Below are positions 9,121 through 57,433 of a DNA stretch of 62,189 nt, one piece after another (within the stretch, counting starts at the first letter, position 1; each line of letters opens with the position of its first letter). A model generated the notes under the pieces. That model was not told the origin of the DNA, ran no database searches, and worked only from the letters and a program-made list of their open reading frames with translations. Position numbers and translations under genes: made by a program. The stretch is from an uncultured Bacteroidales bacterium (GTDB lineage: Bacteria > Bacteroidota > Bacteroidia > Bacteroidales > Bacteroidaceae). The DNA lies in contig CACYQI010000009.1 in the NCBI GenBank assembly GCA_902776455.1, positions 1 to 62,189 on the forward strand. The letters run 5' to 3'.

Positions 9121-9162
9121 AAGAAGCGTAATGAAAGAATGAACGAACGAAAGAATGAAGAA

Positions 9163-10065
9163 ATGAAAATGCGTGCTTTTATATTAATCGCTCTTATGAC
9201 ACTGTGCCCCGCCTTGAGGGCACAGCAGTATGCCACAATCCTCTATCGGCAGACCGACACGCCCCGTGCCGTCCCCGTGGCTGAGATAGATTCTGTAGTG
9301 GTGCGCGACGTTGCGCAAGTGGATGCCACCTACTTTGCCGCTGCTAAGGACACTGTCTATGTCGTGCCCGTCAAGGAGTCGCACTGGAAGGGCAAACGCA
9401 TCGGCTTCCTGGGCGACAGCATTACGCAGTATGCCGAGTACGTCAATTCATACGCTAACCTGACGGGATGTACGGCCGTCAACTACGGTGTGTCTGCCAC
9501 TCACATGGCTCGCAAGAACAACAACGACACCAATGCCTTCGAGCGACGTTACTCCTCGATGACCAGGAACCTCGACATGGTGATAGTCTTTGGCGGCACG
9601 AATGACTTCGGACATACCACTACGGCAGAGTTCGGTGCGTTCACCGACGGGCCGAAAGTGGGCAAGTTCACCTTCTATGCCGGACTGCATCGCCTCTTCA
9701 GAGGACTGCAAGACCGCTATCCGAGCATACCTGTCGTCATCATGCTCCCCCTTCATCATGGCACAGAGATTGATGTGCCCGAGTACATCTTCAACTCCGA
9801 CAAGTCGTTCACCGAAGGTACGAACCCCACTACAGGCAAGACCTTCCGCGAATACGTCAACGCCATTCGCGAGGTAGCTGCCTACTATTCCTTCATCGTT
9901 CTCGATGCTTACAGCTACTCCGGCCTCTCGCCCATGACTGAGATCGGAGCCGAGAACCGCGTGTACTTCCGCGACGGACTCCACCTGAACGCAGCCGGCG
10001 GCGAGAAGTTGGCACGATGGATGTACCCGCAGCTCGAAGCCGTTTACGAAATGTTCTACAAATAA
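9163..10065 (+). CDS. Secreted SGNH/GDSL hydrolase
   Basis: 300 residues from the ATG at 9163, which gives a good signal peptide (MKMRAFILIALMTLCPALRAQ). The ATG at 9139 is in frame but would add repeat-derived NERKNEE, so I prefer 9163. Catalytic blocks: GFLGDSITQY (nucleophile Ser, block I, near residue 90), FGGTNDFGH (block III) and DGLHLNAAGG (block V, Asp-x-x-His). The family deacylates or de-esterifies carbohydrates and lipids; the substrate cannot be told. Fourth gene of the operon, following after 42 bp of sequence that is partly a GAATGAA-type array. Confidence 0.85.
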   Translation: MKMRAFILIALMTLCPALRAQQYATILYRQTDTPRAVPVAEIDSVVVRDVAQVDATYFAAAKDTVYVVPVKESHWKGKRIGFLGDSITQYAEYVNSYANLTGCTAVNYGVSATHMARKNNNDTNAFERRYSSMTRNLDMVIVFGGTNDFGHTTTAEFGAFTDGPKVGKFTFYAGLHRLFRGLQDRYPSIPVVIMLPLHHGTEIDVPEYIFNSDKSFTEGTNPTTGKTFREYVNAIREVAAYYSFIVLDAYSYSGLSPMTEIGAENRVYFRDGLHLNAAGGEKLARWMYPQLEAVYEMFYK

Positions 10066-10069
10066 ATAG

Positions 10070-11002
10070 ATGAAAAAACACAGACATTCTCATTCCTTCA
10101 TTCTTTCATTCCTACATTTCTTCATTCTTTCCTTCCTTCATCTCTCCACGGTTCAGGCCTACGACGTAGAGTTGGGGGGCATCTTCTATTGCATCCTGGG
10201 TTCGTACAGAGCGTACGTCACCCATGCCGACGTAGTGCCGGATTCGAACGGGAAATATGCGAAGGAATACAGCGGAACGGTGGTTGTGCCTTCACAGATA
10301 AGGTACAACGGGCGCAACTACACCGTCATGTCCATCGGCCCCAATGCCTTTGCCGGATGCGAGAAGCTGAATGTCGTCCGTTTGCCATCCACTATCCAAG
10401 CCCTCAGCGCCTGCGCATTCATCGGTTGCTCCAACCTCCGGCAAGTGGTACTGCCTGCTGACCTACAGGCCATTAGCAGCTGTGCATTCACCGGCTGCAC
10501 TTCCTTGCAACAGGTTTCCTTGCCTCGCCATGCGGAAGTTGTCGATACGCTCACGTTCTACTGCTGCACGTCGCTGACGTCGGTCATCTTGCCTCATACC
10601 GTCCGCGCTGTTTGTCAGGGCGCTTTCGAACACCTTCTTTCCCTGAAGCACCTCTACTGCTTCTCTTCGATTCCACCTGTTGCCGAGCGCGGAGCCTTTA
10701 CGTTTGCCGACCAGCAGAACTGCACCCTCCATGTTCCTGCCGAAGCCGTCCAGCTCTACCACGAGTCGCCTGTCTGGAAGGACTTCAAGAGCATCGTTCC
10801 CCTTCAGAACGGCGACTACACGGGCCAAGGCTATCAGCGCGGCGACATCAACGACGACGGACACATCGATGCCAACGACCTCGCCTTGCTTCGCCAACTT
10901 ATTGTAGGCCAACCCGACGAAGCATACGTCCGTTGGGCAGCCGACGTCAACGCCGACGGCATAGTCAATGCCATCGACTTCGTCATTCAGTCGAAGCGAT
11001 AA
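10070..11002 (+). CDS. BspA-like leucine-rich repeat protein with C-terminal dockerin-like module
   Basis: 310 residues, starting 4 bp after the SGNH hydrolase. The signal peptide core (SFILSFLHFFILSFLHLS, residues 9-26) is encoded by an octad array (10085-10148). The middle (about 80-200) has BspA-type leucine-rich repeats (IGPNAFAGCEKLNVVRLPS, CAFIGCSNLRQVVLP, CAFTGCTSLQQVSLP). The end holds two calcium-loop motifs, GDINDDGHIDANDL and ADVNADGIVNAIDF, as in type I dockerins. Such proteins are surface attached or secreted and mediate binding. No cohesin is visible in the window. Last gene of the operon. Confidence 0.82.
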   Translation: MKKHRHSHSFILSFLHFFILSFLHLSTVQAYDVELGGIFYCILGSYRAYVTHADVVPDSNGKYAKEYSGTVVVPSQIRYNGRNYTVMSIGPNAFAGCEKLNVVRLPSTIQALSACAFIGCSNLRQVVLPADLQAISSCAFTGCTSLQQVSLPRHAEVVDTLTFYCCTSLTSVILPHTVRAVCQGAFEHLLSLKHLYCFSSIPPVAERGAFTFADQQNCTLHVPAEAVQLYHESPVWKDFKSIVPLQNGDYTGQGYQRGDINDDGHIDANDLALLRQLIVGQPDEAYVRWAADVNADGIVNAIDFVIQSKR

Positions 11003-11605
11003 ACGCATGTATCTTAGTATTGGCGTACGCTAAGTAAGCGCCGAGTGCGCGAAAGACCACAGACGGAGGTGTAAGCCCCCGGTACAGGAGCATCGAAAAA
11101 ATGATTAATGGGAACTTACGGCCTATCATGTATTAAGCAAACACAAAGACACAAAGGCACTAAGTAACAGCCCATGTTGTAAAGACACAAAGATCTTTGT
11201 GTCTTCAGTTCTGCGGCGTAGCTCTCCGTGTCTTCGTGTCTTTGTGTTTGATTGTCCTTTTGATTTTCACCGAACTCACGTTATCTTAGTAAAGTCCGCT
11301 GAAGCTCCCATCCCTTCAAGGGAGATGATCTTCGTGAAGTCCTGCCGCGACTCCCCTCCCTTCAAGGGGAGGGGTAGGGGGTGGGGTCTGTAATGTATAA
11401 AATAGCTTTGGCCTTTGACAATCTCACCCCACCCCTAACCCCTCCCCTTAAAAGGGAGGGGAAACGCCGCAATGCTTCGACTGAAACTTTGTGAAGAACG
11501 TCGCATTTTCACTCGAAGTGAGGGAATCTCAGCAAAGGCCTGCCGCGACTCCCCTCCCTTCAAGGGGAGGGGTAGGGGGTGGGGTCTGTAATTAACAAAC
11601 TATCC
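11003..11605. other. Gene-free repeat stretch
   Basis: Holds a fragment of the 388-680 element (11030-11085, AGACCACAGACGG...GCCCCCGGTA), an array of ACACAAAGAC-type units (11140-11250) and four G/C-rich CTCCCCTCCCTTCAAGGG-type palindromic modules (11310-11390, 11425-11465, 11545-11590). No gene seen. Confidence 0.65.
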
Positions 11606-11724
11606 ACGTAGATTCGTCAAACTATCCACAGGGCATCCGTTCACGCTCCACGGAGCATCGGCTTACGCTCCACGTTGCATCGGGCGACGCTCCACGTTGC
11701 ATCGGGCGACGCTCCACGTTGTGT
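11606..11724 (-). repeat. 22-bp-period array (ACGT every 22 bp)
   Basis: On the plus strand the ACGT-like core starts at 11606, 11628, 11650, 11672, 11694 and 11716, exactly 22 bp apart. Units read (minus strand) ACGTGGAGCGTCGCCCGATG followed by CA, degenerating to the left. The array ends 4 bp before the sulfotransferase stop codon. See also 22020-22178, 48065-48160 and others. Confidence 0.85.
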
Positions 11725-13009: not shown

Positions 13010-14521
13010 TTCCAGTCCTTGCCGGCTGAGTTCTTTCACGGCCGTCGCGATGGCCTCGTAGTGTTCGGGGCCGATGCCGAGGCGGGGAAGGTCGAGCGTA
13101 GGCAGGTCTTCGCGCATGAGTTCCGTTTCGTCGAGCGGCTTCTCTATCATGCCCACGGCACATGTGTTGTTCGTGATGGGGTCGATGAGGATGAAGGCTC
13201 CGGTGGCACGGTTCTGCGAGTAGGCGTCGAAGAAGAGCGTCTTGGCCGTCGTTATCTGCACCTGACCTATCTCGTTGAGTTTGAAGTCGGTTCCCGGCAA
13301 GTGCTCCATCGTGTTGACGTCGATGCGGTAGTCGATGGCGTTGATGGTGGCACGGGTCGTGTTGGTGTTGGCCTTGAGGAAGAACTGCTTGCTGCGGTCC
13401 ATCGGTTCCTCGTCCATCCAGACGAGCTTCGTCTGCAAGTGTCTCCCGATGAAGGGCAGGTTGTCGGGCTTGACAAGCATCTCCCCGCGCGAGATGTCTA
13501 TTTCGTCTTCGAGCGTAATGGTAACGCTTTGAGGGCAGAAAGCAAGCCCAAGCCCCCCTCCAACCTCCCCCCGAGGAGGGAGGCTTTCTGCCGCGAAACT
13601 CCCCTCCTCCTCGGGGGAGGGGACGGGAGAGGTGGCTGGGGAAGAGGCGGGGGCTGTAGGACTGTAGATTTCCTTCACGCGGCTCGTCTTCTTGCTGGGC
13701 AGGGCCATGATTTCGTCGCCCTTGCGGATGATGCCGCTCGCCACTTTTCCGCAGAAGCCGCGGAAGTCGAGGTTGGGCCGAAGCACGTACTGCACGGGGA
13801 AACGGAAGTCGTGCATGTTGCGGTCGCGGTCAATGGGAACCGTCTCGAGGAACTGGAGAAGGGACGAACCCTCGTACCAAGGTGTGCGTCCGCTCTTCTT
13901 CACCACGTTGTCGCCCTCCTTTGCCGAAAGGGGGAAGCACGTGACGTCCTCGATGCCAAGCCGATGGGTGAGACTGAGGTACTCGTGCTTTATCCTGTTG
14001 AAGACCTCTTCGGAGAAGCCCACGAGGTCCATCTTGTTGATGGCCAGAGCTATGTGTTTGATGCCGAGCAGCGAGACGAGGAACGTGTGTCGGCGTGTCT
14101 GCGTGATGATGCCATTACGCGCATCGACCAGAATGATAGCGAGGTTGGCGGTCGAGCCGCCTGTTATCATGTTGCGCGTGTACTGCTCGTGTCCCGGAGT
14201 GTCTGCGATGATGAACTTGCGTTGGTTGGTCGAGAAGTAGCGATAGGCCACGTCGATGGTGATACCCTCCTCGCGTTCGGCCTTCAGTCCGTCAAGCAGG
14301 AGGGCGTAGTCTATCTCTCCCGCTCCGGCGTTGCCCACGCGCTTCGAGTCGCGCTCGAGTGCTTGGAGCTGGTCTTCGTAGAGCATCTTGCTGTCGAAGA
14401 GCAAGCGTCCGATGAGCGTTGACTTGCCGTCGTCCACCGAGCCGGCTGTAAGCAGGCGGAGAAGCGACTTGCGTTCGTCGGCATCAAGGTAGGCCTTTAT
14501 GTTTAACTTATTGTTTTCCAC
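12992..14521 (-). CDS. cysN: Sulfate adenylyltransferase subunit 1 (GTPase CysN)
   Basis: 509 residues. GTPase motifs: [19 protein letters not shown] (G1, residue 27 on), [21 protein letters not shown] (G3) and NKMDLVG (G4). With CysD it makes APS from ATP and sulfate, with GTP hydrolysis driving the reaction. It has no fused APS-kinase domain. Between SRVKEIYS and [18 protein letters not shown] (about residues 292-328), where the family has a short acidic loop, an extra low-complexity segment ([20 protein letters not shown], then [20 protein letters not shown]) is encoded by G/C-rich repeat modules like those between genes. The frame is kept and the C-terminal domain continues, so the enzyme may remain functional. 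Confidence 0.92.
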
Positions 14522-20422: not shown

Positions 20423-20553
20423 TGTGTCAAAATACAATTAATATAATGTAAACAACGGATTACACGGATTTGACGGACCTAAGCCACGCTGATAATCAGC
20501 ATATAAGAAAATCCGTTGAATCTGTGTAGTCCGTTGTTGTTAATTATGACACA
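20423..20553. repeat. Palindromic element P1 with TGTGTCA/TGACACA ends
   Basis: About 131 bp bounded by TGTGTCA (20423-20429) and TGACACA (20547-20553). Imperfect inverted arms (AACAACGGATTACACGG and its mirror CTGTGTAGTCCGTTGTT) surround the palindrome GCTGATAATCAGC. A second copy in the opposite orientation lies at 25788-25908, and a related fragment at 961-1030. It has the shape of a miniature inverted-repeat element. Confidence 0.75.
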
Positions 20554-21889: not shown

Positions 21890-22019
21890 CAAGCTTGTCA
21901 CCTTCCTTCCTATTGTTTCTTTTATTGATGACAAGGGGATGTTTATCTCATCTTCCTTTGAGGTTCTTCTCCAACACACATCCCATGTTTTAGTGGCGCA
22001 AAGGTGTTGGCTTTACACG
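21890..22019. other. Start of convergent gap before the 22-bp array
   Basis: Unstructured sequence with TTTTATTGATGACAAGGGG and a short pyrimidine tract. No obvious terminator hairpin. Confidence 0.4.
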
Positions 22020-25787: not shown

Positions 25788-25908
25788 ATAATAAACAACG
25801 GATTAAACGGATTTGACGGATTAGCTTAAATGCTGACTATCAGCTTACCTTCAATCCGTTCAATCCGTTCAATCCGTTGTTTTATTATATTAATTGTGTT
25901 TTGACACG
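25788..25908. repeat. Palindromic element P2 (opposite orientation to P1)
   Basis: Reverse-complement relative of 20423-20553: AACAACGGATTAAACGG, core GCTGACTATCAGC, three tandem CAATCCGTT units, then TTAATTGTGTTTTGACAC. It lies just downstream of the lon stop codon and could also act as a terminator-like structure. Confidence 0.75.
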
Positions 25909-37360: not shown

Positions 37361-39058
37361 TTAGAGGAGGCTTTTCCCTAAGTACGCCGCTACTGCTTCG
37401 GCACAGCGTTCGCCATCGACACCTGCGCTGACGATGCCGCCGGCATAGCCTGCACCTTCGCCACAAGGGAAGAGGCCTGCTATGCGGATGTGCTGCAAGG
37501 TCTCGTTGTCGCGGAGGATGCGGACAGGACTGCTGGTCCTTGTTTCGATGCCGATAACGGTGGCTTCGCTCGTCAGGAAGCCGTGTTTCTGCTTGCCCCA
37601 CAGCTTGAAGGCTTCGCGAAGACGGCTGCTGATGAACTCCGGCAACCAGAAATGCAAGGGGCTGGCTATCAAGCCGGGAGCGTAGGAAGATTCGTTGAGG
37701 TCGGCGGAGAGGCGTCCGTTCACGAAGTCCGTCATCCGCTGTGCCGGAGCCGTCTGCATGCGATTTGCCTGCAGCCAGCATTGCCGCTCGAGGTCTTCCT
37801 GAAGCAAAAGAACCCCTAAAGAGGGGCAAGGGGCAGGGGGCAAGGAGCAGGAGGATTGCTCTGACAGTTGGTCTTCTCTTGCCCCTAGCCCCTTGCTCCT
37901 TGCCCCTTTTAAGGGGGAGTTCGAGGGGGTCACATCTTCCGGCCTTATCTCCACCACCATACCGCTATTGCTCCAACGGCCGTTGCGGTTAGACGGACTC
38001 ATGCCGTTGACCACAACCTGTTCCGGTCCGCTTGCCGCAGGCACGACGAAGCCGCCGGGACACATGCAGAAACTATAGACGCCACGACCCTGAACTTGCG
38101 TCACCATGCTGTACTCGGCAGCCGGCAACCACTTTCCCCTACCCTCTCGATTGTGGTATTGTATCTGGTCGATGAGGTGGGCCGGATGCTCCAGGCGAAC
38201 ACCAATGGCAAGTCCCTTCGCCTCTATGTCGATGCCGCTCTCTGCAAGGTATCGATAGACATCGCGTGCCGAATGGCCAGTAGCAAGGATGACGGGACCG
38301 TCAAATGTGGTGCGAGGGGCATGGGGCAAGGGGCAAGAGGTTACCTCTGCTTCTATTCCTGCAACTATTCTCTCGCTCCTTGCCCCTTGCTCCTTGCTCC
38401 TTACAATCAGCCCTGTCATCTTGGTTTGGAAGTGCACCTCGCCGCCACAGGCAAGGATGGTCTTGCGCATGTTCTCGATGACACGCGGCAGGCGGTCGGT
38501 GCCGATATGCGGATGGGCATCGGAGAGGATGGCCGGGCTTGCTCCGTGCTGCACGAAGATTTGCAGGATGCGGTCGGTGTTGCCGCGCTTCTTGCTGCGC
38601 GTGTAGAGTTTGCCGTCGCTGTAGGCCCCTGCCCCACCCTCGCCAAAGCTGTAGTTGCTCTCGGGGTCAACACGTTGCTCCGGACGAATGCGTGCCAAGT
38701 CCTTCTTGCGCTCGCGAACATCCTTGCCTCGCTCCACGACAATAGGCTTCAGCCCCAATTCGATGAGTCGCAAAGCAGCAAACAGTCCGCCAGGACCAGC
38801 TCCGACCACAACAACCGAGGGACAGTCGCTCACATCTTTATATATATAAGGCTCGAAGTCCTGCAAAGGCGGTTCCTCGCCGACATAAGCCCTTACGGTC
38901 AGATTGACATAAATCGTCCGCTGACGGGCATCGATGCTGCGACGCAACACGCGCACAGCTCCCGCTTTGATTCCCTTTTCCTCGCGAAGATAAGCAAGGA
39001 TGCTCTGTTCGTTGTATGCTTGCCTGGGCAAGATACGCAAGTTTAGTTCATTGACCAT
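37361..39058 (-). CDS. FAD-dependent oxidoreductase with two repeat-derived insertions
   Basis: 565 residues. An N-terminal domain (about 1-75) precedes the Rossmann FAD motif VVVVGAGPGGLFAALRLIELG and ER at the end of the second strand (VVERG). Other family blocks are NYSFGEGGAGAYSDGKL, VILATGHSARDVY and the C-terminal GLFPCGEGAGYAGGIVSAGVDG. These are the marks of the large NAD(P)/FAD family protein found across Bacteroidales; substrate unknown. Two non-family segments, about residues 219-248 (IVRSKEQGARSERIVAG...CPLPHAP) and 376-418 (PSNSPLKGARSKGLGARE... CSLPPAPCPSLG), are encoded by heptad (CCTTGCC)n and G/C-rich repeats identical in type to intergenic ones. The frame is maintained through both. 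Confidence 0.85.
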   Translation of the reverse strand: MVNELNLRILPRQAYNEQSILAYLREEKGIKAGAVRVLRRSIDARQRTIYVNLTVRAYVGEEPPLQDFEPYIYKDVSDCPSVVVVGAGPGGLFAALRLIELGLKPIVVERGKDVRERKKDLARIRPEQRVDPESNYSFGEGGAGAYSDGKLYTRSKKRGNTDRILQIFVQHGASPAILSDAHPHIGTDRLPRVIENMRKTILACGGEVHFQTKMTGLIVRSKEQGARSERIVAGIEAEVTSCPLPHAPRTTFDGPVILATGHSARDVYRYLAESGIDIEAKGLAIGVRLEHPAHLIDQIQYHNREGRGKWLPAAEYSMVTQVQGRGVYSFCMCPGGFVVPAASGPEQVVVNGMSPSNRNGRWSNSGMVVEIRPEDVTPSNSPLKGARSKGLGAREDQLSEQSSCSLPPAPCPSLGVLLLQEDLERQCWLQANRMQTAPAQRMTDFVNGRLSADLNESSYAPGLIASPLHFWLPEFISSRLREAFKLWGKQKHGFLTSEATVIGIETRTSSPVRILRDNETLQHIRIAGLFPCGEGAGYAGGIVSAGVDGERCAEAVAAYLGKSLL

Positions 39059-39093
39059 TAAACATTAACCTTTTCTGCGCAAAAGTACAAAAT

Positions 39094-39126
39094 AATTCAT
39101 AATTCATAATTCAAAATTCATAATTA
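39094..39126. repeat. Heptad array (AATTCAT)n
   Basis: Four to five AATTCAT/AATTCAA units in the divergent gap between the FAD oxidoreductase and thrA. Confidence 0.75.
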
Positions 39127-39175: not shown

Positions 39176-41629
39176 ATGAAAGTAATGAAGTTTGGCGGAA
39201 CATCTGTAGGTTCCGCAGAAAGCATACTGAGTGTAAAGAGGATTGTCGAGAGGCAAACAGAACCTGTCATTGTTGTGGTCAGCGCCCTTGGCGGCATCAC
39301 CGACAAGCTCATCAGGACAAGCCAGATGGCAGTGGAAGGCGATGCCCTCTATCAAATGTCGTTCGACGAGATAAAGGTGCGTCACGAGGAGATGATAAAC
39401 GCCATCATTCCTGCCGGAGAAAAGCGCAACAAGCTAATGACCGTGGTGGGCGGACTGCTCGAGGAACTGCGCAGCATCTACCAGGGCGTCTATCTCATTC
39501 ACGACCTGAGTGCCAAGACGCAGGCAGCCATTGTCTCCTACGGCGAACGCATCAGCAGTCAGATTGTAGCGACGTTGATTGAAGGCGCTGAATGGTTCGA
39601 CAGCCGCGAGTTCATCAAGACAGAGTTCAAGGCAGGCAAGAACAGACTCGTCCGCGAGTTGAGTAACAAACTGGTGCGCAAGACCTTTGGAGACTCTGAT
39701 TCTTCACTCTTCACTCTTCGTTCTTCACTCCAATGCGTTGTTGTCGGCGGCTTCATCAGCACCGATGCCGAGAGCGGCGAAGTGACGAACCTCGGACGCG
39801 GAGGCAGCGACTACACAGCCAGCATCATTGCTGCGGCTCTGGATGCCAGCGTGCTGGAGATATGGACCGACGTCGATGGCTTTATGACAGCCGACCCGCG
39901 CGTCATCAGCTCGGCATACGTCATACCCGAACTGAGCTATGTCGAAGCAATGGAGCTAAGCAACTTCGGCGCAAAAGTCATCTATCCGCCAACGATTTAT
40001 CCCGTCTGCATCAAGCACATACCCATCCTTGTCAAGAACACCTTCAACCCCGATGCTCCAGGCTCTATCATCAAGGACGAAGTGATGGACGACTCGAGGA
40101 GCATCAAAGGCATCTCCAGCATCAAGGGCACAACGCTCATCACCGTATCGGGTCTCTCGATGGTGGGCGTCATCGGCGTCAACCGCCGCATCTTCACTTG
40201 CCTGGCAGACAATGGCATCAGCGTCTTCATGGTCAGTCAGGCATCCAGCGAGAACAGTACGAGCATCGGCGTTCAGGACGAAGATGCCGACGAAGCTTGT
40301 CGCGTCTTGGACATTGAGTTCAAGAAGGAGATTGAGGACGGCTCGATGTTCCCCATGCTTGCCGAGAAAGGCCTTGCAACCGTCGCTATCGTAGGCGAGA
40401 ACATGAAGCACACACCAGGCATTGCCGGTAAACTCTTCGGCACGCTTGGCCGCTCGGGTATCAGCGTTATTGCCTGTGCTCAAGGTGCCAGCGAGACGAA
40501 CATTTCCTTCGTCATCAACCAGAACTTCCTCCGCAAAGCACTTAATGTCATCCACGACTCCTTCTTCCTCTCCGAATACCAAGTTCTGAACCTCTTCGTC
40601 TGTGGCGTCGGCACGGTGGGCGGCAGCCTCTTGGAGCAGATACATCAACAGCAGGAAAAGTTGATGCGCGAACTCCGGCTGAAGCTCAATGTCGTAGGCA
40701 TTGCCAGCGGCCACAACGCCATCTTCACCCGCGAAGGTATCAACCTGGAGAACTACCGCGAACAGCTCGCAGCAGCTCCTGTAAGCAACATCCAACGCTT
40801 GCACGATGAAGTCATCGGCATGAACATCTTCAACAGCGTCTTCGTCGATTGCACGGCAAGCCCCGAAGTGGCCGGTCTCTATGCCGACTTCCTCGAGCAC
40901 AACATCAATGTCGTGGCAGCCAATAAGATTGCAGCCAGCAGCGACTACGCCAACTACCGAAAGCTCAAAGAGACCAGCCAGAAGCGTGGCGTCAAGTTCC
41001 TCTTCGAGACGAATGTCGGCGCTGGACTGCCCATCATACGTACCATCAACGACCTCTGCAACTCGGGCGACAAAATACTTCGCATCGAGGCAGTTCTGAG
41101 CGGAACGCTCAACTTCATCTTCAACACAATCAGCAAGGACATTCCTTTCAGCGAAACGGTTCGCATGGCAAAGGAAGAAGGCTACAGCGAACCCGACCCG
41201 CGCATCGACTTGAGCGGCAAGGACGTCATTCGCAAGCTGGTCATCCTGGCTCGCGAGGCCGGCTACGAGATAAGTCAAGAAGACGTGGAAGCCAAGCTCT
41301 TCATTCCACAGTCTTTCTTCGAAGGTTCGCTGGAAGAGTTCTGGAAGAACCTGCCTTCGCTCGATGCCGACTTGGAGGCTCGCCGACAGGAACTGGAGAA
41401 GCAGAAGAAGGTTTGGCGCTTCGTGGCCAAGCTCGAGAACGGCAAGGCCAGCGTCTCGCTCGAAGAGTTCGACCACAACCACTCGTTCTACGTACTCGAA
41501 GGCAGCAACAACATCGTGATGCTCACCACAGAGCGCTACCGCAAGTACCCGATGCTCATCCAGGGCTACGGTGCGGGAGCAAGCGTGACGGCCGCTGGTG
41601 TGTTCGCCGACATAATGAGCCTGGCATAA
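39176..41629 (+). CDS. thrA: Bifunctional aspartokinase / homoserine dehydrogenase
   Basis: 817 residues from ATG 39176 (MKVMKFGGTSVGSAESILSV), the conserved kinase start. The aspartokinase domain (1 to about 290, VSYGERISSQIVATLI, TDVDGFMTADPR) is followed by ACT regulatory domains (about 310-460) and homoserine dehydrogenase (about 465-817; VCGVGTVGGSLLEQI, NKIAASSDYANYRKL, SGTLNFIFNTISKD). It catalyses the first and third steps of the aspartate pathway. At about residues 175-186, between KTFGDSD and CVVVGGFI, the peptide SSLFTLRSSLQ is encoded by a (TCTTCAC)n heptad array, an in-frame insertion. First gene of the thr operon. Confidence 0.95.
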   Translation: MKVMKFGGTSVGSAESILSVKRIVERQTEPVIVVVSALGGITDKLIRTSQMAVEGDALYQMSFDEIKVRHEEMINAIIPAGEKRNKLMTVVGGLLEELRSIYQGVYLIHDLSAKTQAAIVSYGERISSQIVATLIEGAEWFDSREFIKTEFKAGKNRLVRELSNKLVRKTFGDSDSSLFTLRSSLQCVVVGGFISTDAESGEVTNLGRGGSDYTASIIAAALDASVLEIWTDVDGFMTADPRVISSAYVIPELSYVEAMELSNFGAKVIYPPTIYPVCIKHIPILVKNTFNPDAPGSIIKDEVMDDSRSIKGISSIKGTTLITVSGLSMVGVIGVNRRIFTCLADNGISVFMVSQASSENSTSIGVQDEDADEACRVLDIEFKKEIEDGSMFPMLAEKGLATVAIVGENMKHTPGIAGKLFGTLGRSGISVIACAQGASETNISFVINQNFLRKALNVIHDSFFLSEYQVLNLFVCGVGTVGGSLLEQIHQQQEKLMRELRLKLNVVGIASGHNAIFTREGINLENYREQLAAAPVSNIQRLHDEVIGMNIFNSVFVDCTASPEVAGLYADFLEHNINVVAANKIAASSDYANYRKLKETSQKRGVKFLFETNVGAGLPIIRTINDLCNSGDKILRIEAVLSGTLNFIFNTISKDIPFSETVRMAKEEGYSEPDPRIDLSGKDVIRKLVILAREAGYEISQEDVEAKLFIPQSFFEGSLEEFWKNLPSLDADLEARRQELEKQKKVWRFVAKLENGKASVSLEEFDHNHSFYVLEGSNNIVMLTTERYRKYPMLIQGYGAGASVTAAGVFADIMSLA

Positions 41630-41683: not shown

Positions 41684-42893
41684 GAAGCATCTCATCATTC
41701 TTGGCGACGGCATGGCCGACTGGCCGTGCGACGAGTTGAAGGACAAGACATTGCTCCAATATGCCGACACGCCTCATTTCGATTGGCTTGCCGAGCATGG
41801 ACGCAACGGCTTACTGAAGACCGTTCCCGACGGCTTCCATCCTGGTAGCGAGGTTGCCAACTCCAGCATCCTCGGTTACGACCAGCACATAGTCTATGAA
41901 GGCAGAGGACCACTCGAGGCAGCAAGCATCGGCGTGGAACTCGCTGAAGACGACCTAGCCCTTCGCTGCAACTTGGTTTGCCTCGAAGGCAATCTCCTGA
42001 AGAACCATTCCTGCGGACGGCTTGAGACAGAAGAAGGCGACGTGCTGATTCGCTTCCTTCAGGAACAGCTTGGCTCAGAGCGCATCCACTTCTATACAGG
42101 TGTTCAGTATCGGCACTTGCTGGTCATCAAGGGCGGCAACAAGCATCTGCATTGCACGCCGCCTCATGATATTCCCTTGAAGCCGTGGCGCGAATACATG
42201 CTGCGGGCCGAATGTCCCGAAGCAGAAGAGACCGCCCAACTGCTCATCGACCTCATCCTTCGCAGTCTGGAGTTGCTGGCTAAGCATCCGCTCAACATCG
42301 AACGGCAGCAGAGAGGCATGGACCCCGCCAACTGCATCTGGCCGTGGGGAGGCGGCTATCGGCCCAAGATGACACCGCTGACGGAGACTTATCCGCAGAT
42401 CAAGAAAGGAGCCGTCATCACGGCCGTTGACCTCATCCGAGGCATCGGACGCTATGCGGGCTTGGACGTCATCAATGTGCCTGGGGCAACAGGACTTTGG
42501 GATACTGACTTCCGCGCAAAGGCACAGGCAGCAATTGATGCTTTGCAAACCAATGACTTCGTCTATCTGCATGTTGAGGCAAGCGATGAAGCCGGTCACG
42601 ACGGCGACCTGCACATGAAGCTTGGCTGCATCGAACACCTCGACCACCTGCTCCTTGCACCCATCCTCTCTCAATTGTCAAAGGTCAATGGTCAATGTTC
42701 CATAGCTCTCCTTCCCGACCACCCGACGCCCATTCACCATCGCACTCATACGGCCGAGCCTGTTCCCTTCTGCATCTACTATCCTGGCATCGAGCCCGAT
42801 AAAGTGCAGACCTTCGACGAGGTTGCTGCCAAGGAAGGCATCTATGGCAACCTTGAAGGCGACGCATTCATCAAAGAATTTATGAAAAGGTAA
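41682..42893 (+). CDS. ApgM-like protein, probable homoserine kinase
   Basis: 403 residues starting at TTG 41682: the conserved N-terminus KHLIILGDGMADWPCDEL begins immediately after it and no ATG fits. It has the alkaline-phosphatase-like metal site of cofactor-independent phosphoglycerate mutases (ILGDGMADWP; ANSSILGYD with the usual Ser; ASDEAGHDGD and LPDHPTP with metal-binding Asp/His). Between thrA and thrC no GHMP-type homoserine kinase is present. From memory, genetic work in Bacteroides thetaiotaomicron and Desulfovibrio assigns homoserine kinase activity to this family, so threonine synthesis is the likely role. Residues 332-340 (SKVNGQCS) come from a (GGTCAAT)n repeat. Confidence 0.82.
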   Translation: MKHLIILGDGMADWPCDELKDKTLLQYADTPHFDWLAEHGRNGLLKTVPDGFHPGSEVANSSILGYDQHIVYEGRGPLEAASIGVELAEDDLALRCNLVCLEGNLLKNHSCGRLETEEGDVLIRFLQEQLGSERIHFYTGVQYRHLLVIKGGNKHLHCTPPHDIPLKPWREYMLRAECPEAEETAQLLIDLILRSLELLAKHPLNIERQQRGMDPANCIWPWGGGYRPKMTPLTETYPQIKKGAVITAVDLIRGIGRYAGLDVINVPGATGLWDTDFRAKAQAAIDALQTNDFVYLHVEASDEAGHDGDLHMKLGCIEHLDHLLLAPILSQLSKVNGQCSIALLPDHPTPIHHRTHTAEPVPFCIYYPGIEPDKVQTFDEVAAKEGIYGNLEGDAFIKEFMKR

Positions 42894-42899: not shown

Positions 42900-44333
42900 A
42901 TGAGATACTATAGCACAAACGGCAAGGCACCGCTTGCCACACTCGAAAAGGCCGTCGTCAAAGGACTGGCCGAAGACAAGGGACTCTACATGCCGGAGCG
43001 CATCAAGCCACTCCCGCAGGAGTTCTACGACAACATCCAGGACATGTCGCTCCAGGAGATTGCTTACCGCGTGGCAGACTGCTTCTTTGGCGAAGACGTT
43101 GATGCAGAGAGCCTTCGCAAGATAGTGAACGAAACACTTTCCTTCGACATACCTTTAGTAAAGGTAAAAGGGTTAAAAGGAGAAAAGGAGACCCTCTCTA
43201 ACTCTCCCTTAAAGGGAGAGAACAACGACACCCTCCCTTTAAGGGAGTCTGTTTACTCTCTCGAACTCTTCCACGGCCCTACCCTCGCCTTCAAGGACGT
43301 CGGCGCCCGCTTCATGGCTCGCCTGCTAAGATATTTTACTAGCAGCTCTAGTTCTGCTAGTTCGACTAGTTTTACTAGTCCAACTAGCCCTGCTAGTTTA
43401 ATTAATGTCCTCGTTGCCACGAGCGGCGATACAGGTTCTGCTGTTGCCAACGGCTTCCTTGGCGTGGAAGGCATCCACGTCTATGTGCTCTACCCGAAGG
43501 GTAAGGTCAGCCCCATACAGGAGTGTCAGTTCACGACGCTTGGGCAGAACATCACAGCTCTTGAGGTGGATGGCGTGTTCGACGACTGCCAAGCACTCGT
43601 CAAAAATGCCTTCATGGACGAGGAACTCAATGCCCGAATGCGGCTCACCTCTGCTAACAGCATCAACGTGGCACGCTTCCTGCCGCAAAGCTTCTACTAC
43701 TTCTGGGCTTACGCTCAGCTCAAAAAAATCGTAAATTGTAAATCGTCAAATAGTAAATTCGTTTGCTGTGTCCCTTCCGGCAACTTCGGCAACATCTGCT
43801 CCGCCCTCTTTGGCAAGCGCATGGGTCTGCCTATCAGTCGCTTCATCGCTGCCAACAATGCCAACGATGTCTTCTATAAATACATACAGACCGGCAAGTA
43901 CGAGCCAATGGCAAGCATACAGACCATTGCCAACGCGATGGACGTGGGTGCTCCGAGCAACTTCGCCCGCATCCTCGACCTCTACGGCAACAGCCACGAA
44001 GCCATCTGCAAGGACATCAGCGGCGCAACTTATACAGACGAACAGATTGCCGAGACCATGCGCCAATGCCTTGCCGAGACGGGATATCAGCTTGACCCTC
44101 ACGGAGCTTGCGGCTACCGTGCCTTGCAGGAAGGGCTGAAGGAAGGCGAAATCGGCTTCTTCATCGAGACGGCACATCCCGCTAAGTTCAAGCAGACAGT
44201 AGATGACATCTGCGGCATCGACATTGCCATCCCTGAGCGTTTGCAAGCCTTTATGAAAGGCACAAAGCAGAGCATTCCTATGAGCAAGGACTATGAAGAG
44301 TTCAAGAGAATACTCAGCACTGGACTTCAATAA
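42900..44333 (+). CDS. thrC: Threonine synthase with three repeat-derived insertions
   Basis: 477 residues. N-terminus MRYYSTNGKAPLATLEKAVVKGLAEDKGLYMP, PLP lysine in HGPTLAFKDVGARF (about residue 133), VATSGDTGSAVANGF and VPSGNFGN identify a fold type II threonine synthase acting on O-phosphohomoserine. Three segments absent from the family interrupt it: about 89-116 (GLKGEKETLSNSPLKGENN, G/C-rich module plus AAGGTAAA array), 147-168 (Ser/Thr-rich, from a 9-bp CTAGTTCTG-type array at 43337-43405) and 276-287 (IVNCKSSNSK, from the AT heptad array at 43726-43760). All keep the frame and lie between conserved blocks. Six bp after the kinase gene. Confidence 0.93.
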   Translation: MRYYSTNGKAPLATLEKAVVKGLAEDKGLYMPERIKPLPQEFYDNIQDMSLQEIAYRVADCFFGEDVDAESLRKIVNETLSFDIPLVKVKGLKGEKETLSNSPLKGENNDTLPLRESVYSLELFHGPTLAFKDVGARFMARLLRYFTSSSSSASSTSFTSPTSPASLINVLVATSGDTGSAVANGFLGVEGIHVYVLYPKGKVSPIQECQFTTLGQNITALEVDGVFDDCQALVKNAFMDEELNARMRLTSANSINVARFLPQSFYYFWAYAQLKKIVNCKSSNSKFVCCVPSGNFGNICSALFGKRMGLPISRFIAANNANDVFYKYIQTGKYEPMASIQTIANAMDVGAPSNFARILDLYGNSHEAICKDISGATYTDEQIAETMRQCLAETGYQLDPHGACGYRALQEGLKEGEIGFFIETAHPAKFKQTVDDICGIDIAIPERLQAFMKGTKQSIPMSKDYEEFKRILSTGLQ

Positions 44334-45639
44334 CCTCTCTGACTCCAAGACCCTCTCCCAACCTCTCGCATGTAGGGAGAGGCAGGGAGAGGGTCTGGGA
44401 GCTGAAGAAAGTCTTCCCCTTTGGAACTCAAACTACCTGAAGGCCTGGAGCGCGAACTTCATGCTCTACTTCTCCTTCATGCTCGTCACGCCGCTCTTCC
44501 CGTTGTACTTGAGCGAAGTGTTTGGTGCGACGAAGGAAGTAACGGGTATGGTGCTGAGCGGCTATGCACTCACAGCTCTGCTCATACGTCCCTTCAGCGG
44601 ATTCCTTGTCGATTCCTTTCCGCGCAAGATGGTACTGCTCGTCTGCTACGGACTCTTCGCCCTTCTCTTTGGCGGTTATCTCGTGGCAGGCAGCCTACTC
44701 TCCTTCTTCATCATTCGCACCTTGCACGGCGCACCTATGGGAGCCACAACGGTTGCCAACAGCACAGTAGCCATCGATGTCCTGCCGTCCAAACGTCGAG
44801 CTGAAGGCATCGGCTACTATGGACTGAGCAACAACCTCGGTACAGCCATCGCGCCAACCATCGGAATGCTCATCTATCAATGGACGGCCAGCTACAATAT
44901 CATCTTCCTCATTTCCCTCTTAACAGCAGGCATGGGCTTTGCTATAAACAGCACACTAAAACTCAAGCCGCGTCCGATAGAGAAAGAAAGATTGAAAAAG
45001 GAGAATGACACATTCCATAAAGTTCATTTTTCACTATTTACTTTTCACTTTTCACTTAGTCTCGACCGCTTCTTGCTGCTGAAGGGCTGGCCCGAAGCAC
45101 TTTGCATGATTGGCTACAGTTTCTCGTATGGCGTGGTAAGCACCTATATCGCTATCTATGCTAAGCAAGAACTCGGCATCACCACCGGCACAGGTCTGTT
45201 CTTCACGTTGCTTTGCATCGGACTGATGTCGAGCCGACTGATAGGTGCTCGCGGACTTCGCGAAGGGCGCATAGCTGAGAATGCGGCCCACGGCGTTCTC
45301 ACCTCGCTCGTCGGCTACTTCGTCTTTGCAGCATTCCATAACATGTGGGGATTCTACGGAGCGGCCCTCATCATCGGCCTTGGCAACGGACACATGTTCC
45401 CGGCCTTTCAGACGATGTTCATCAACATGGCACCCGCCTCGCAGCGAGGTACAGCAAACGGCACCTTGCTTACGGCTTGGGAGACGGGCTTCGGCCTCGG
45501 CATCATCTTGGGCGGCATAGCAGCCGAGTTCTTTTCTTACGGCACAGCTTTCTGGCTTGCCTGGCTCTCCAACGCAGCCGGCGCCGCCTTCTTCTTCGCT
45601 TATGCCCGTAAGCACTTCCTTGCGCATCGAATCTCCTGA
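44293..45639 (+). CDS. MFS transporter with repeat-derived N-terminus and central loop
   Basis: 448 residues. ATG 44293 lies inside the end of thrC (41-bp overlap) and is the only evident start. The first 40 residues include SDSKTLSQPLACRERQGEG from a G/C-rich AGGGAGAGG module; family-like sequence starts at LWNSNYLKAWSANFMLYFS. Twelve membrane helices and the MFS loop motif SGFLVDSFPRKMVLL are present. The cytoplasmic loop between helices 6 and 7 (about 237-257) contains HFSLFTFHFSLSL from a (TTTTCAC)n heptad array. Substrate unknown; its place in the thr operon would fit amino-acid export. Translational coupling with thrC is likely. Confidence 0.85.
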   Translation: MKSSREYSALDFNNLSDSKTLSQPLACRERQGEGLGAEESLPLWNSNYLKAWSANFMLYFSFMLVTPLFPLYLSEVFGATKEVTGMVLSGYALTALLIRPFSGFLVDSFPRKMVLLVCYGLFALLFGGYLVAGSLLSFFIIRTLHGAPMGATTVANSTVAIDVLPSKRRAEGIGYYGLSNNLGTAIAPTIGMLIYQWTASYNIIFLISLLTAGMGFAINSTLKLKPRPIEKERLKKENDTFHKVHFSLFTFHFSLSLDRFLLLKGWPEALCMIGYSFSYGVVSTYIAIYAKQELGITTGTGLFFTLLCIGLMSSRLIGARGLREGRIAENAAHGVLTSLVGYFVFAAFHNMWGFYGAALIIGLGNGHMFPAFQTMFINMAPASQRGTANGTLLTAWETGFGLGIILGGIAAEFFSYGTAFWLAWLSNAAGAAFFFAYARKHFLAHRIS

Positions 45640-48064: not shown

Positions 48065-48160
48065 CCGTGGAGCGTGAGCCGATGCAACGTGGAGCGTGAG
48101 CCGATGCAACGTGGAGTGTGGGCCGATGCAACGTGGAGCGTGGGCCGATACTCCGTGCTG
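48065..48160 (+). repeat. 22-bp tandem array, four units
   Basis: Unit starts at 48065, 48087, 48109 and 48131, with a partial at 48153. Units read ACGTGGAGCGTGAGCCGATG then CA, with small differences. Located between convergent genes, like the array at 22020-22178. Confidence 0.88.
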
Positions 48161-48203: not shown

Positions 48204-50528
48204 TCAAGAGAGGCAGGAGACGCTGGTAAGGAACTCTTCGGCTTCAGCCAGCGAACCGGGCTTGCCGACGTCGAGAAGGCGAAGGCCGGCCTGTACGTAG
48301 CCATAGATAGGTTCTTTGTCACAGACTTTCAGATAGAAGTCGATGATGCTGAAGCGCTCGGGGAAGTCATCGAAGTAGGCAAAGAGCCGCGGCGTCATGT
48401 AGTGAATGCCGGCAAAGGCGTACTTGCGGTAGTGCTCCGGATTGATGTCGGGATAGGGACTGCGTACTTCGCCAGTCGCGATGTTAGTCCATCCCACAAG
48501 GCGCATCTCGTCGTCGAAAAGGAGGTATCGCTGCGTCTTGCGCTCGCTGACAAGCAAGGTGGCGGCACGATAAGAGTTGAGAGTTGAAAGTTGAGAGTTG
48601 AAACGCTCTCTTCTGACTTTAGGCGAAGAGCTGCCTATCTCAGCAAGCTGTCGCAAGTCGGCGTTGGAGAGAATATCGACGTTGTGGATGAGGAAGCCTG
48701 CCTCAGCGTCGCTAAGCAAGGGAGCTGCATGTTTGATGCCGCCACCCGTCTCGAGGAGCTGGGCGCGCTCGTCGCTGAACCTGATGCGCATCTGCATGGG
48801 ATGCTCCTTGCACCATTCCTCTATCATGTCGGCAAAGTGATGCACGTTTATCACGACGTCGTTGAAGCCCGATGCCTTCAGCTTCAGGAGCAGGTGCTCA
48901 AGGAGCGGTTTGCCGCCGACGTTGACCAGAGCTTTCGGTCTGTCGGCTGTGAGTGGGCCAAGGCGAGTGCCGAGGCCTGCGGCGAAGATCATAGCACGAG
49001 GTGCCTTCAATACCTGCGTTATGCTCTGTTCGCGGTGGCAAAGGTGAACCTCGATGCCAAACTTCCTGTTTATGTGCTCCGCCAAGTGCTGGGCACAATA
49101 GACGCTGCGATGCTGACCGCCTGTGCAGCCGAAGCTGAACATGAGGTCGGTGAAGCCGCGCTCCATGTAACGGCTGACGTGAGCGTCGGCCAGCTTATAG
49201 ACACTCTCGAGGAAGGTCAGGATTTCGCCATCGTCTTCAAGAAAGCGGATGACAGGTTCGTCGAGGCCAGTCAGCTGCTTGTAGGGTTCGTAGCGACCGG
49301 GATTGTGAGTGGAACGGCAGTCGAAGACGTACCCGCCGCCATTGCCGCTCGTGTCCTCCGGAATGCCCTTCCGATAGGAGAAGCTGAAGACGCGGACAAG
49401 CAGAAGACCTTCTCCCAATCTCTCCCTCTGGTATCTACTCCTCTCCCTACAAGGGAGAGGTTGGGAGAGGGTCCGAGAGGAAGGTTGTATGCTCAGACAA
49501 AGTTTTGTCAGCACCTCATTAAGATAAGGATAGGGGCATCCGCCTTCGCTGAGCAGGTCTTGAAGGTTCTCTATGGCAGGCGGAATGCTGTCGAGGAAAT
49601 GCTTCTTGCGTTCGAAGTAACCACGAAAGCCGTAAGCACCAAGCACTTGAAGCAGGCGGAAGAGGACACAAAGCTGCAAGCCACGGCGGAACTCAGCCTC
49701 ATTGGCAAATGGCCATTGACCATGAACCGTTTCTCCTTCAGAAGAAGGTTGGGAAGTCTTTTCTTTAAGGCTTTGCAGATAAACCTCGATGAGTTCTTCG
49801 CGCAAAGCCTTGGGATAGCGTGCAGAAGCTTGCCATAGAAAGCTTGCCACGTCGTACTGCACGGGACCTTTCCTGCCTCCCTGAAAGTCGATGAAGCAAG
49901 GGTTGCCTTCGGCATCGAGCATGACGTTCCTTGCCTGGAAGTCGCGGTACATGAAAGCTCTGCCCGGGATGCTGACGATGTCGTGAGCCATCTGCCGGAA
50001 GGAGTCTTCGAGCTTCATTTCGTGGAAGTCAATCCCTGTGGTCTTGAGGAAGCAGTACTTGAAGTAATTGAGGTCGAAGAGGACGTTGGTCTCGTCGAGC
50101 GAAGGCTGCGGATAGCATTGGTTGAAGTCGAGTCCCCTTGCTCCGAGTATCTGCATGGCCGGCAAGGTGGCAATGGTCTTGCGGAGCAATTCGCGTTCCT
50201 GCTCATTGTACTGTCCACCGGCTTCGCGTCCACCCTTCAACGCATCGAAGAGGGAGAGGCTGCCGAGGTCGCTTTGCAGATAGCGAAGCCCGTCATCGCT
50301 CTCGGCCACTACCTGAGGCACAGGCAGATGCGCCTCGCTGAAATGGCGGGCGAGATAGCAGAAGGCACGGTTCTCGTCGAGGCTCGTGCCGACGACTCCT
50401 ATGAGCGAACTGCCCTGACTGGACTTCAGACGATAGTACTTCCGGTTGCTTCCTGCTCCCGGGATGGCTTCGACCTCGCTTGCATCGAAACCGGTTGCTT
50501 CCTTGTATAGCTGCTTCAGTTGTTCCAC
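48204..50528 (-). CDS. Three-domain fusion: AmgK-like sugar kinase, RapZ C-terminal domain, MurU-like nucleotidyltransferase
   Basis: 774 residues. Domain 1 (about 1-335) is an aminoglycoside-phosphotransferase-type kinase resembling AmgK: PGAGSNRKYYRL, catalytic AFMYRDFQARNVML and CFIDFQGGRKGPVQYDVASFL. Domain 2 (about 375-505) matches the RapZ C-terminal domain: FSFSYRKGIP, YVFDCRSTHNPGRY, LTGLDEPV and FSFGCTGGQHRSVYCAQHLA; the RapZ kinase part is absent. Domain 3 (about 510-774) is a sugar-1-phosphate nucleotidyltransferase: AMIFAAGLGTRLGPLTADRP, KALVNVGGKPLLEH, LIHNVDILSN. AmgK and MurU form the MurNAc recycling route to UDP-MurNAc. Repeat-derived segments occur in the first linker (about 345-374, SRTLSQPLPCRERSRYQ) and at about 642-651 (RFNSQLSTLNS). 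A separate start at MIFAAG cannot be excluded. Confidence 0.85.
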   Translation of the reverse strand: MEQLKQLYKEATGFDASEVEAIPGAGSNRKYYRLKSSQGSSLIGVVGTSLDENRAFCYLARHFSEAHLPVPQVVAESDDGLRYLQSDLGSLSLFDALKGGREAGGQYNEQERELLRKTIATLPAMQILGARGLDFNQCYPQPSLDETNVLFDLNYFKYCFLKTTGIDFHEMKLEDSFRQMAHDIVSIPGRAFMYRDFQARNVMLDAEGNPCFIDFQGGRKGPVQYDVASFLWQASARYPKALREELIEVYLQSLKEKTSQPSSEGETVHGQWPFANEAEFRRGLQLCVLFRLLQVLGAYGFRGYFERKKHFLDSIPPAIENLQDLLSEGGCPYPYLNEVLTKLCLSIQPSSRTLSQPLPCRERSRYQRERLGEGLLLVRVFSFSYRKGIPEDTSGNGGGYVFDCRSTHNPGRYEPYKQLTGLDEPVIRFLEDDGEILTFLESVYKLADAHVSRYMERGFTDLMFSFGCTGGQHRSVYCAQHLAEHINRKFGIEVHLCHREQSITQVLKAPRAMIFAAGLGTRLGPLTADRPKALVNVGGKPLLEHLLLKLKASGFNDVVINVHHFADMIEEWCKEHPMQMRIRFSDERAQLLETGGGIKHAAPLLSDAEAGFLIHNVDILSNADLRQLAEIGSSSPKVRRERFNSQLSTLNSYRAATLLVSERKTQRYLLFDDEMRLVGWTNIATGEVRSPYPDINPEHYRKYAFAGIHYMTPRLFAYFDDFPERFSIIDFYLKVCDKEPIYGYVQAGLRLLDVGKPGSLAEAEEFLTSVSCLS

Positions 50529-56027: not shown

Positions 56028-56053
56028 GAGATTTTATGTTAAGGTTGTTAAGG

Positions 56054-56100
56054 TCTTTAGGGTCTTTAAGGACTTTAAGGACTTTAGGGTCTTTAAGGAC
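56054..56100. repeat. 9-bp array (TCTTTAAGG/ACTTTAAGG)n
   Basis: Five 9-bp units occupy almost the whole gap between the MFS gene and rlmI. Confidence 0.8.
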
Positions 56101-56101
56101 G

Positions 56102-57433
56102 TTATTCAACATAGAGCACCAAGCCTTTCAGGTATTCGCCTTCGGGATGGTAGATGTTGACGGGGTGGTCGGCTGGCTGATGAAGCTGGTGCAGAATGCG
56201 AACCTTCCTCTTAGCCATTGCAGCTGCCGTGAAGACGGCCATTCGGAACTGGTCTTTGTTGACTGCTTGCGAACAACTGAAGGTAAAGAGTATGCCGCCT
56301 GGCTGTATCATTTCGAAGGCTTTGGCGTTGAGCTTTGTATAGCCTCGGAGAGCATTCTTGAGGGCATCCTTGTGCTTGGCAAAAGCGGGCGGGTCGAGAA
56401 TGATGAGGTCGTAAGGGCTTTGACTCTTAACCCTTGGCCCTTGACCATTATTCCTTGTTGCTGCATCTTCGGGCGTAGCCGAATGGTCAATGGTCAACGA
56501 TAACTGGTCGATGAAGCGGAAGGCGTCTTCGGCAAAGGCTTGGTGACGATTGTCGCCAGGGAAGTTGAGTTCGACGTTGGCATTCACCAGTTCGATGGCT
56601 TTGGCACTACTGTCCACAGAATGCACCAGCTCTGCCCCACCCCTCATGGCATAGACGCTGAAGCCACCGGTGTAGCAGAACATGTTGAGCACCTTGCGGC
56701 CTTTTGCATAGTGTTCCACAAGCAATCGGTTGTCGCGCTGATCGACAAAGAAACCTGTCTTCTGACCTTTCAGCCAGTCGATATGGAAGGCCAGACCATT
56801 CTCGCGAGCTATATCATCACATGTACAATTTGAGGATTTACTATTTACAATTTCTTCTTCACTTGCTTCTTTATAGAGGAAACCGTTCTCCTGGCCGAGT
56901 TGCGCTTTGAAGGGAAGCGTCGTCTCGCTTTTGTAGTAAATGGCTTTGAGGCTTTCTCCCATGACTTCCCGAAGGGCTTGGGCTATCTCGCCTCTGCAGA
57001 CGTGCATCCCGACGCTGTGTGCCTGCATGACAGCCGTCGTGCCATACATATCGATGACCAGTCCCGGCAGGTTGTCACCTTCACCGTGAACGAGGCGGAA
57101 GATGTCATTGCATTTACCATTTAAGCATTTATCATTTACCATTTGTGCCACTCCGATGGTCTTGCGAACATTGAGTGCTGCGGCCAGACGTTTCTGCCAA
57201 AAAGCCTTGTCGATACGTTGACGTTTGAATGTCAGCACACGGACCGCGATGCTTCCTATCTGCCAATGTCCGATGGCGAGAAAGCGTCCGTCGCTGGAAA
57301 GCACCTCGACGAGGTCGCCTTCCTCCAGCGGCTCCGGGCTTTCGGTATGGTGAATGGCACCGCTGAATATCCAGGGATGGAAGCGCAGGAGACTTTCTTC
57401 CTTACCTTTTCTGAGTATAATAGTCTTATTCAT
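56102..57433 (-). CDS. rlmI: 23S rRNA m5C methyltransferase RlmI-like, with repeat-derived insertions
   Basis: 443 residues, longer than the roughly 390-400 usual for the family. PUA domain (about 1-80: LRKGKEESLLRFHPWIFSGAI, EEGDLVEVLSSDGRFLAIG), then the Rossmann methyltransferase: NMFCYTGGFSVYAMRGGA (SAM motif I), LIILDPPAFAKHKDAL (motif IV) and FTFSCSQAVNKDQF (catalytic Cys). Three extra segments account for the length: about 97-108 (MVNDKCLNGKC, from CATTTACC heptads), 194-203 (IVNSKSSNCT, AT heptad array) and 311-338 (IDHSATPEDAATRNNGQG, from GGTCAAT/CCTTGACC repeats). Overlaps the exonuclease stop by 4 bp. Confidence 0.9.
   Translation of the reverse strand: MNKTIILRKGKEESLLRFHPWIFSGAIHHTESPEPLEEGDLVEVLSSDGRFLAIGHWQIGSIAVRVLTFKRQRIDKAFWQKRLAAALNVRKTIGVAQMVNDKCLNGKCNDIFRLVHGEGDNLPGLVIDMYGTTAVMQAHSVGMHVCRGEIAQALREVMGESLKAIYYKSETTLPFKAQLGQENGFLYKEASEEEIVNSKSSNCTCDDIARENGLAFHIDWLKGQKTGFFVDQRDNRLLVEHYAKGRKVLNMFCYTGGFSVYAMRGGAELVHSVDSSAKAIELVNANVELNFPGDNRHQAFAEDAFRFIDQLSLTIDHSATPEDAATRNNGQGPRVKSQSPYDLIILDPPAFAKHKDALKNALRGYTKLNAKAFEMIQPGGILFTFSCSQAVNKDQFRMAVFTAAAMAKRKVRILHQLHQPADHPVNIYHPEGEYLKGLVLYVE

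Follow-up and report, generated by a model that had tools for sequence, protein, structure and literature searches.

Repeats inside eight conserved genes

The 62,189-nucleotide stretch of DNA analysed here in full (the window) is contig C9 of a 3.39-Mb draft genome (G000; 94 contigs, 87% complete) from an uncultured gut bacterium of the Bacteroidaceae, and our subject is the short repeats, above all tandem arrays of heptads, that lie between its genes and inside eight of them: cysN, a flavin adenine dinucleotide (FAD)-dependent gene, thrA, apgM, thrC, the major facilitator superfamily (MFS) gene after thrC, an AmgK/RapZ/MurU fusion gene and rlmI (Table 1). A first-pass annotation had reported that such arrays, together with G/C-rich palindromic modules, sit in frame in these eight genes with the surrounding family blocks intact. 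We found this in every case, with the repeat DNA lying within one open frame and Pfam domains detected around the repeats in 8/8 genes.

Orthologues could be compared for 22 of the window's 36 open reading frames (ORFs), with none available for 14; thresholds removed from the alignments any locus that had a weak tblastn score or a short ORF. Seven of these 22 (all of the named genes except apgM) carry repeat-bearing segments that most compared relatives lack, and distant orthologues are likewise without these residues. The added peptide that had been claimed for all eight genes thus stands in seven, while apgM, previously called homoserine-kinase-like, shows no net insertion: its heptads occupy a loop of unchanged length, as they do in the sister genome G005. 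Inserts of at least four amino acids (aa) were absent from 11 of the 22 comparable ORFs; cysD, spmAB and exo35 were flagged mainly at N-termini of uncertain position, and in TPR2 the flagged segment (7 aa) does not resemble the repeats.

Gene by gene, the repeats expected at least twice in the fusion gene and three times in rlmI were recovered as segments that most relatives lack, with the MurU-part heptad site comparable in five relatives that have a fused MurU part. Of the three repeats attributed to thrC, two are clear inserts and the third lengthens its loop by only about 3–4 aa; of the two attributed to the MFS gene, the heptads are common to G005, and the palindrome falls at an N-terminus whose start codon is uncertain. 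A predicted structure of the thrC product (mean predicted local distance difference test score, pLDDT, 86.3; predicted template modelling score 0.88) drops below a pLDDT of 50 at residues 93–113 and 151–164, which are its two clear inserts, both flanked by conserved helices and strands. For the FAD protein, the model was too poor to interpret (mean pLDDT 53.6). At the thrA site, G005 holds a different 7-aa insert.

Heptad arrays as paired arms of a hairpin

Counts were made in a 462-kb sample of G000, comprising the window and 20 stretches of 20 kb. Tandem arrays number 389 in this sample against 10 in one first-order shuffle, and those of periods 7, 14 and 15 number 156 against 2, with period peaks at 7 (104 arrays), 22 (57), 9 (34), 14 (34) and 12 (27). 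At a slightly lower threshold, 118 period-7 arrays represent just 27 heptads if rotations and the two strands are treated as equivalent, where simple arithmetic allows about 1,170. Inverted repeats with arms of at least 15 also exceed chance (104, against 1 in one shuffle), and 26 of the 104 have arms of period 7.

These two kinds of repeat are often one structure, in which heptad arrays form inverted pairs around a short core. An inverted partner lies within 160 bp of 46 of 195 arrays and a direct partner of 7 (local-alignment score threshold 32), compared with a control rate of 3.2% obtained with the flanks of other arrays; in a looser set reaching to 250 bp, which includes some 8–9-mer arms and counts one array twice, there are 32 inverted and 11 direct pairs. 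Roughly one heptad array in four belongs, as an arm, to a hairpin of some 80–95 bp with a 26–40-bp core (AGAATA...AATYCT), so that the element has terminal inverted repeats, and folding returns long hairpins. Having seen these inverted pairs, we no longer treated arrays and palindromes separately. Three arm classes share the one core, which in each begins AGAATA and ends AATYCT: class A (GCAAGGR), class B (GTTAGNG) and class C (GTGAAGA).

A strict DNA pattern for the core recovered few copies (5 in G000 and singles elsewhere, some likely by chance), so we searched instead with a covariance model, R1, trained on 17 copies picked for having both arms. Standard pairs fill 91.9% of the pair cells of these copies, and both sides change in 17 of 25 pairs, giving 79 cells against 28.2 in shuffles (0/500); sliding the structure along the copies lowers pairing to 36–55%. 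When copies were instead picked by core alone, the arms were at least 75% complementary in 13 of 18, compared with 26% of cross-element pairs. Searched against Rfam, the window gave no match at the gathering threshold.

Copy number and dispersal

R1 matches 41 places in the 462-kb sample, training copies included, of which 33 score at least 35 bits; among these 33 elements, 12 lie in called genes, 1 at a gene edge and 20 between genes (gene calls here and in the array counts are from our own simple ORF caller). Across whole genomes, we scored 118 candidates per genome on both strands, and since palindromes match on both strands, matches exceed elements. All 118 scored candidates match in G000, from 1978 candidates, with 108 in G020, 71 in G013, 26 in G014, 23 in G003 and 12 in G005; the remaining 17 same-genus genomes searched give 0–8 each, and of 14 other members of the order, G034 gives 2 and the other 13 none. 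Inverted repeats with period-7 arms also occur in 80 named Bacteroidaceae or Prevotella-like loci (9 in 940 kb). Inserts per gene correlate modestly with R1 counts over 20 genomes (Spearman 0.50, p = 0.023, 118 scored per genome), after exclusion of three genomes with fewer than 3/6 genes.

Near-identical copies lie at unrelated positions. A 110-bp unit, in which a G/C-rich palindrome travels with the hairpin, is 104/110 identical between the FAD gene of G000 and the thrC/MFS junction of G020, and 80/80 bp are identical between two genes 3.6 kb apart. Outside the window, hairpins interrupt AlaRS, EngB, MetH, RsmF-like and FabF-like genes. We queried 11 hairpin-carrying genes from elsewhere in G000 in sister genomes through their flanks, and ten could be aligned (the gene at L193:10103 had no aligned sister, and MetH had one, G020); NCBIfam cut-offs are passed by AlaRS, EngB, MetH and FeoB, the other gene names being weaker.

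For four of the ten compared genes, a sister holds a different element at the same site. At the AlaRS site, G000 and G005 have a TTGACC-type hairpin, G013 a class A hairpin and G020 a palindromic module, and the site is empty in G008, G012 and G024. At the FabF-like site, G000 has class C and G020 has class A, and G013 has a lone class C arm that replaces the loop at equal length. In RsmF-like and EngB, the class A element of G000 corresponds to a palindrome in G020; the EngB site is empty in five sisters, and the right half of the EngB element is triplicated in frame. G000 alone has the CapD-like insert, class C occurs in a glycosyltransferase-like gene of both G000 and G020, and the MetH insert is common to those two genomes, its sole comparison. 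The same variety appears within thrC, where the same loops are occupied by heptads in some species and by nonamers, a 24-bp repeat or palindromes in others (105 rows, after removal of two duplicates), and at two gene junctions, where G000 has class C and class B elements, G005 has near-adjacent genes and some sisters have other repeats.

These comparisons also speak to artefact. A draft assembly in 94 contigs, with repeats prone to misassembly, invites the explanation that the inserts are assembly or binning errors, a concern that the first-pass annotation had itself raised. Genomes that were assembled independently carry inserts of this kind too, which counts against assembly error, and different in-frame elements occupy the same sites in separately assembled genomes, named Prevotella-like assemblies included; we regard an artefact as very improbable.

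A reading-frame filter

The coding frame filters which copies stay. We split 111 period-7 arrays by whether both strands of the heptad, one strand or neither is free of stops; called genes contain 11/16, 21/70 and 0/25 of them, respectively, counts that are partly circular because a gene call cannot span a stop; the genic share for heptads open on both strands compares with a coding fraction of 81%. Of 12 class A elements, 8 fall in genes, as do 0 of the 9 class B elements, which have stops in their arms (p = 0.005). Among 41 genic arrays of periods 7 and 14, there are 11 whose heptad does contain a sense-strand stop, and there the repeat copy that would read as a stop is altered. Since 7 and 3 have no common factor, an array of heptads runs through all its phases whichever frame is used, so a heptad without stops leaves all three frames of its strand open; and with its arms inverted, the element shows the same pair of arms whichever way round it is inserted.

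An account of the elements

We consider it probable that these repeats represent a family of non-autonomous dispersed hairpin elements that insert into genes as well as the DNA between them and then pass through a reading-frame filter, a reading supported directly by the hairpin architecture, the dispersal of near-identical copies, the empty orthologous sites in sisters and the frame filter. The unit would be a short core between inverted heptad arrays, sometimes with a G/C-rich palindrome, transposed in trans by a separate enzyme. Copies would land both between and within genes, and the survivors inside genes would be frame-preserving, stop-free versions, mostly in loops that vary among relatives. 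The arms may have been born and homogenised by slippage or hairpin repair, and their later expansion, shrinkage or loss could leave lone heptad arrays and loops rewritten without a change in length. The first-pass annotation had offered active insertion and tolerated loop growth as alternatives, and each holds in part: insertion is active, as dispersed near-identical copies and sisters that differ at the same site indicate, and the coding frame filters what stays, while simple growth does not describe loops replaced at equal length (apgM and the FabF-like site in G013).

A simpler explanation is that heptads are born in place as short tandem repeats by local replication slippage alone, the intragenic ones being those that keep frame. 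At the pairing threshold we chose, 149 of 195 arrays stand without an inverted partner, and slippage by itself might have produced such single arrays; variable copy number and units, as well as the in-frame triplication in EngB, are what slippage would produce. Against this stand the small number of heptads among the period-7 arrays, the inverted pairing, the common core at unrelated loci and the near-identical 80–110-bp copies in different genes. Slippage alone is already disfavoured for the hairpins, and we think it unlikely to explain the repeats as a whole.

A second alternative is that the hairpins are REPINs, mobilised by RAYT (Y1 tyrosine transposase) and merely happening to tolerate genes. 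REPINs are described as inverted doublets with a variable loop that fold as hairpins, for which non-autonomous dispersal has been proposed (PMC3116915), and our elements share this form; the genome also encodes three Y1-transposase-like ORFs (L336, L337 and L338), two of them above the Pfam cut-off. Related repeats do not flank these ORFs as they flank RAYT genes, and the repeat beside the 183-aa Y1-like ORF is a 22-mer array. The arms, moreover, are tandem heptads with no fixed palindromic REP, and copies are frequently intragenic (12/33 elements of at least 35 bits), whereas the same source describes REPINs as extragenic. We therefore judge this alternative improbable, if somewhat less so than slippage alone.

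Several observations weigh against the dispersed-element account itself, in addition to the unpaired arrays. No heptad hairpin was found in the three Y1-like loci (about 2.4–3.2 kb), in a search for a parent transposon that covered Y1_Tnp only. No target-site duplication was recognisable at six genes and three intergenic junctions aligned as DNA, where flanks are too different or the insert replaces sequence. Insertion is not always harmless, since in a LolA-like gene (L190:19073) the insert has also taken the place of a stretch that four sisters conserve. Three genes of G018 carry five inserts between them, yet that genome has few R1 matches, which means that R1 does not account for all inserts. 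The covariation reflects mainly the three class changes rather than independent events, in 17 copies preselected for both arms, and the frame filter is inflated by our simple gene caller and by the counting of stop-broken genes as intergenic.

We also raise, more tentatively and as the less likely case, a broader possibility: foldback hairpins with tandem heptad arms may constitute a new class of bacterial mobile DNA, effectively frame- and orientation-proof, that could colonise genes at near the rate expected from coding density and make and rewrite surface loops of conserved proteins across Bacteroidaceae.

Comparison with known systems

The first-pass annotation had likened the repeats to Rickettsia palindromic elements (RPEs), a parallel that is apt in part; it had missed that arrays of heptads in many cases form the two arms of a single hairpin and that the palindromic module may travel with it. 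RPEs are short, palindromic and dispersed, comprise several families, and occur both in intergenic DNA and, in frame, inside metabolic genes unrelated to one another (PMC10969869). By description, our elements share with them the palindromic form, the many dispersed copies and the in-frame copies in unrelated protein genes; they differ in arms made of tandem heptads, which vary between classes and match within a copy, in the occurrence of single arms and equal-length replacements, and in belonging to another phylum.

Dispersed period-7 arrays also have bacterial precedents. TAACTGA heptamer repeats, translatable in the reverse orientation, are described in Beggiatoaceae, Cyanobacteria and five Bacteroidetes (PMC4679880), and G-rich heptads in Xanthomonas and Nostoc (PMC4692102); in the accessible portions of both reports, these are one fixed heptad rather than hairpin arms, and insertion into conserved genes is not described.

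The foldback transposons Galileo and Tetris are described as having long terminal inverted repeats built of internal tandem repeats. The Drosophila FB element is a foldback transposon with long terminal inverted repeats of internal tandem repeats. Inverted repeats made of tandem subrepeats thus recur here, although foldback transposons are eukaryotic, much larger and in some cases equipped with a transposase, and our elements span 80–95 bp and are coding-compatible. Terminal inverted repeats on a short non-coding element likewise recall miniature inverted-repeat transposable elements (MITEs), among them BrickBuilt of Porphyromonas gingivalis, a Bacteroidales element that holds a tandem repeat; according to its abstract, that repeat is a 23-bp direct minisatellite between small inverted ends, and the element is always intergenic.

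Taken by likeness, the elements would appear to work as RPEs do, with an anatomy that recalls REPINs and foldback transposons, and we assign them to none of these. In the open-access literature we found no description of heptad-armed hairpins in Bacteroidales genes; subscription papers lie mostly outside that coverage, so this is no proof of absence. The elements would be a second, unrelated case after Rickettsia of repeats surviving inside protein genes, in which a simple sequence rule (a period coprime to 3, inverted arms and a stop-free heptad) would explain why repeats are tolerated in AlaRS, EngB and MetH genes. The origin of lineage-specific insertions in conserved proteins thereby becomes directly testable, and such peptides in predicted proteins of this group should be read as real insertions rather than assembly noise.

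Features and other repeats of the window

Table 1 Repeat features in and between genes of the window
Feature	Position	Strand	Description
Longest intergenic heptad array of the window	2102..2225	+	ATTTACN
cysN	13565..13660	-	G/C-rich palindromic module, 32 aa in frame; same-genus relatives lack it
Intergenic nonamer-arm hairpin	25793..25882	.	Arms AACGGATTN; architecture like that of the heptad hairpins
FAD-dependent gene	37361-39058		Host of two in-frame heptad-arm hairpins
FAD gene, class A hairpin	37813..37916	-	Arms GCAAGGR, loop GAAGACCAACTGTCAGAGCAATC; in frame; core match 37825-37904; R1 85.6 bits (a training copy); encoded residues absent from relatives
FAD gene, second heptad-arm hairpin	38311..38402	-	In frame; R1 60.2 bits, outside the training set
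Intergenic heptad array	39092..39125	+	ATAATTC, inside inverted repeat 39079-39140
thrA	39698..39730	+	Lone TCTTCAC heptad array, in frame; 10 aa (39698-39727) absent from most relatives
apgM	42671..42697	+	TCAATGG heptad array, equal-length loop replacement
thrC, palindromic module	43170..43247	+	Residues ~91-115; 43170-43244 absent from most relatives
thrC, nonamer array	43348..43398	+	CTAGTTCNA-like; 43365-43391 absent from most relatives
thrC, heptad array	43726..43758	+	GTAAATC/GTAAATT; loop slightly above shortest relatives
MFS gene, palindrome	44343..44401	+	At N-terminus
MFS gene, heptad array	45001..45057	+	TTCACTT, in frame
Fusion gene, MurU part	48573..48603	-	AACTCTC heptad array, peptide NSQLSTLNS
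Fusion gene, AmgK-RapZ linker	49406..49473	-	Palindromic module; linker also highly variable among relatives
Fusion gene, AmgK part	49707..49751	-	15-aa insert, weakly repeat-like by 13-mer count
rlmI, inverted TTGACCA-type pair	56423..56497	-	32-bp loop, 25 aa in frame
rlmI, heptad-like segment	56819..56860	-	Changed form present in G020
rlmI, heptad array	57110..57138	-	CATTTAC

We also observed repeats of other kinds. Hairpins with nonamer arms (ACGGATTTA) occur twice in the window (20451-20538 and 25793-25882) and at L187, L191, L196 and L199, with the architecture of the heptad hairpins at another period and a loop that often contains a small palindrome. A 22-bp tandem family (CTCCACGGAGCATCGGCC-like) lies at 11643-11721, 22015-22178 and 48066-48149; arrays of period 22 or 44 are intergenic in 62 of 64 cases, and one adjoins the Y1-transposase-like ORF at L336. 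Two of the three Y1-transposase-like ORFs have short internal peptide repeats of their own. In G018, thrC (L055) and AmgK (L113) carry large in-frame inserts from other repeats, including a 24-bp unit and TGCAT-type peptides.

Numerous interspersed repeats of about 290–330 bp, 77–89% alike and several of them starting TTGTCCG, are present in the window (415-701 and 25431-25709) and at L184, L188, L195, L196, L201 and other loci, and look like further MITE-type families. Finally, an aldolase-like ORF at 1049-2098 of the window seems, by eye, to leave its family in its C-terminal part, with repeat DNA close downstream.

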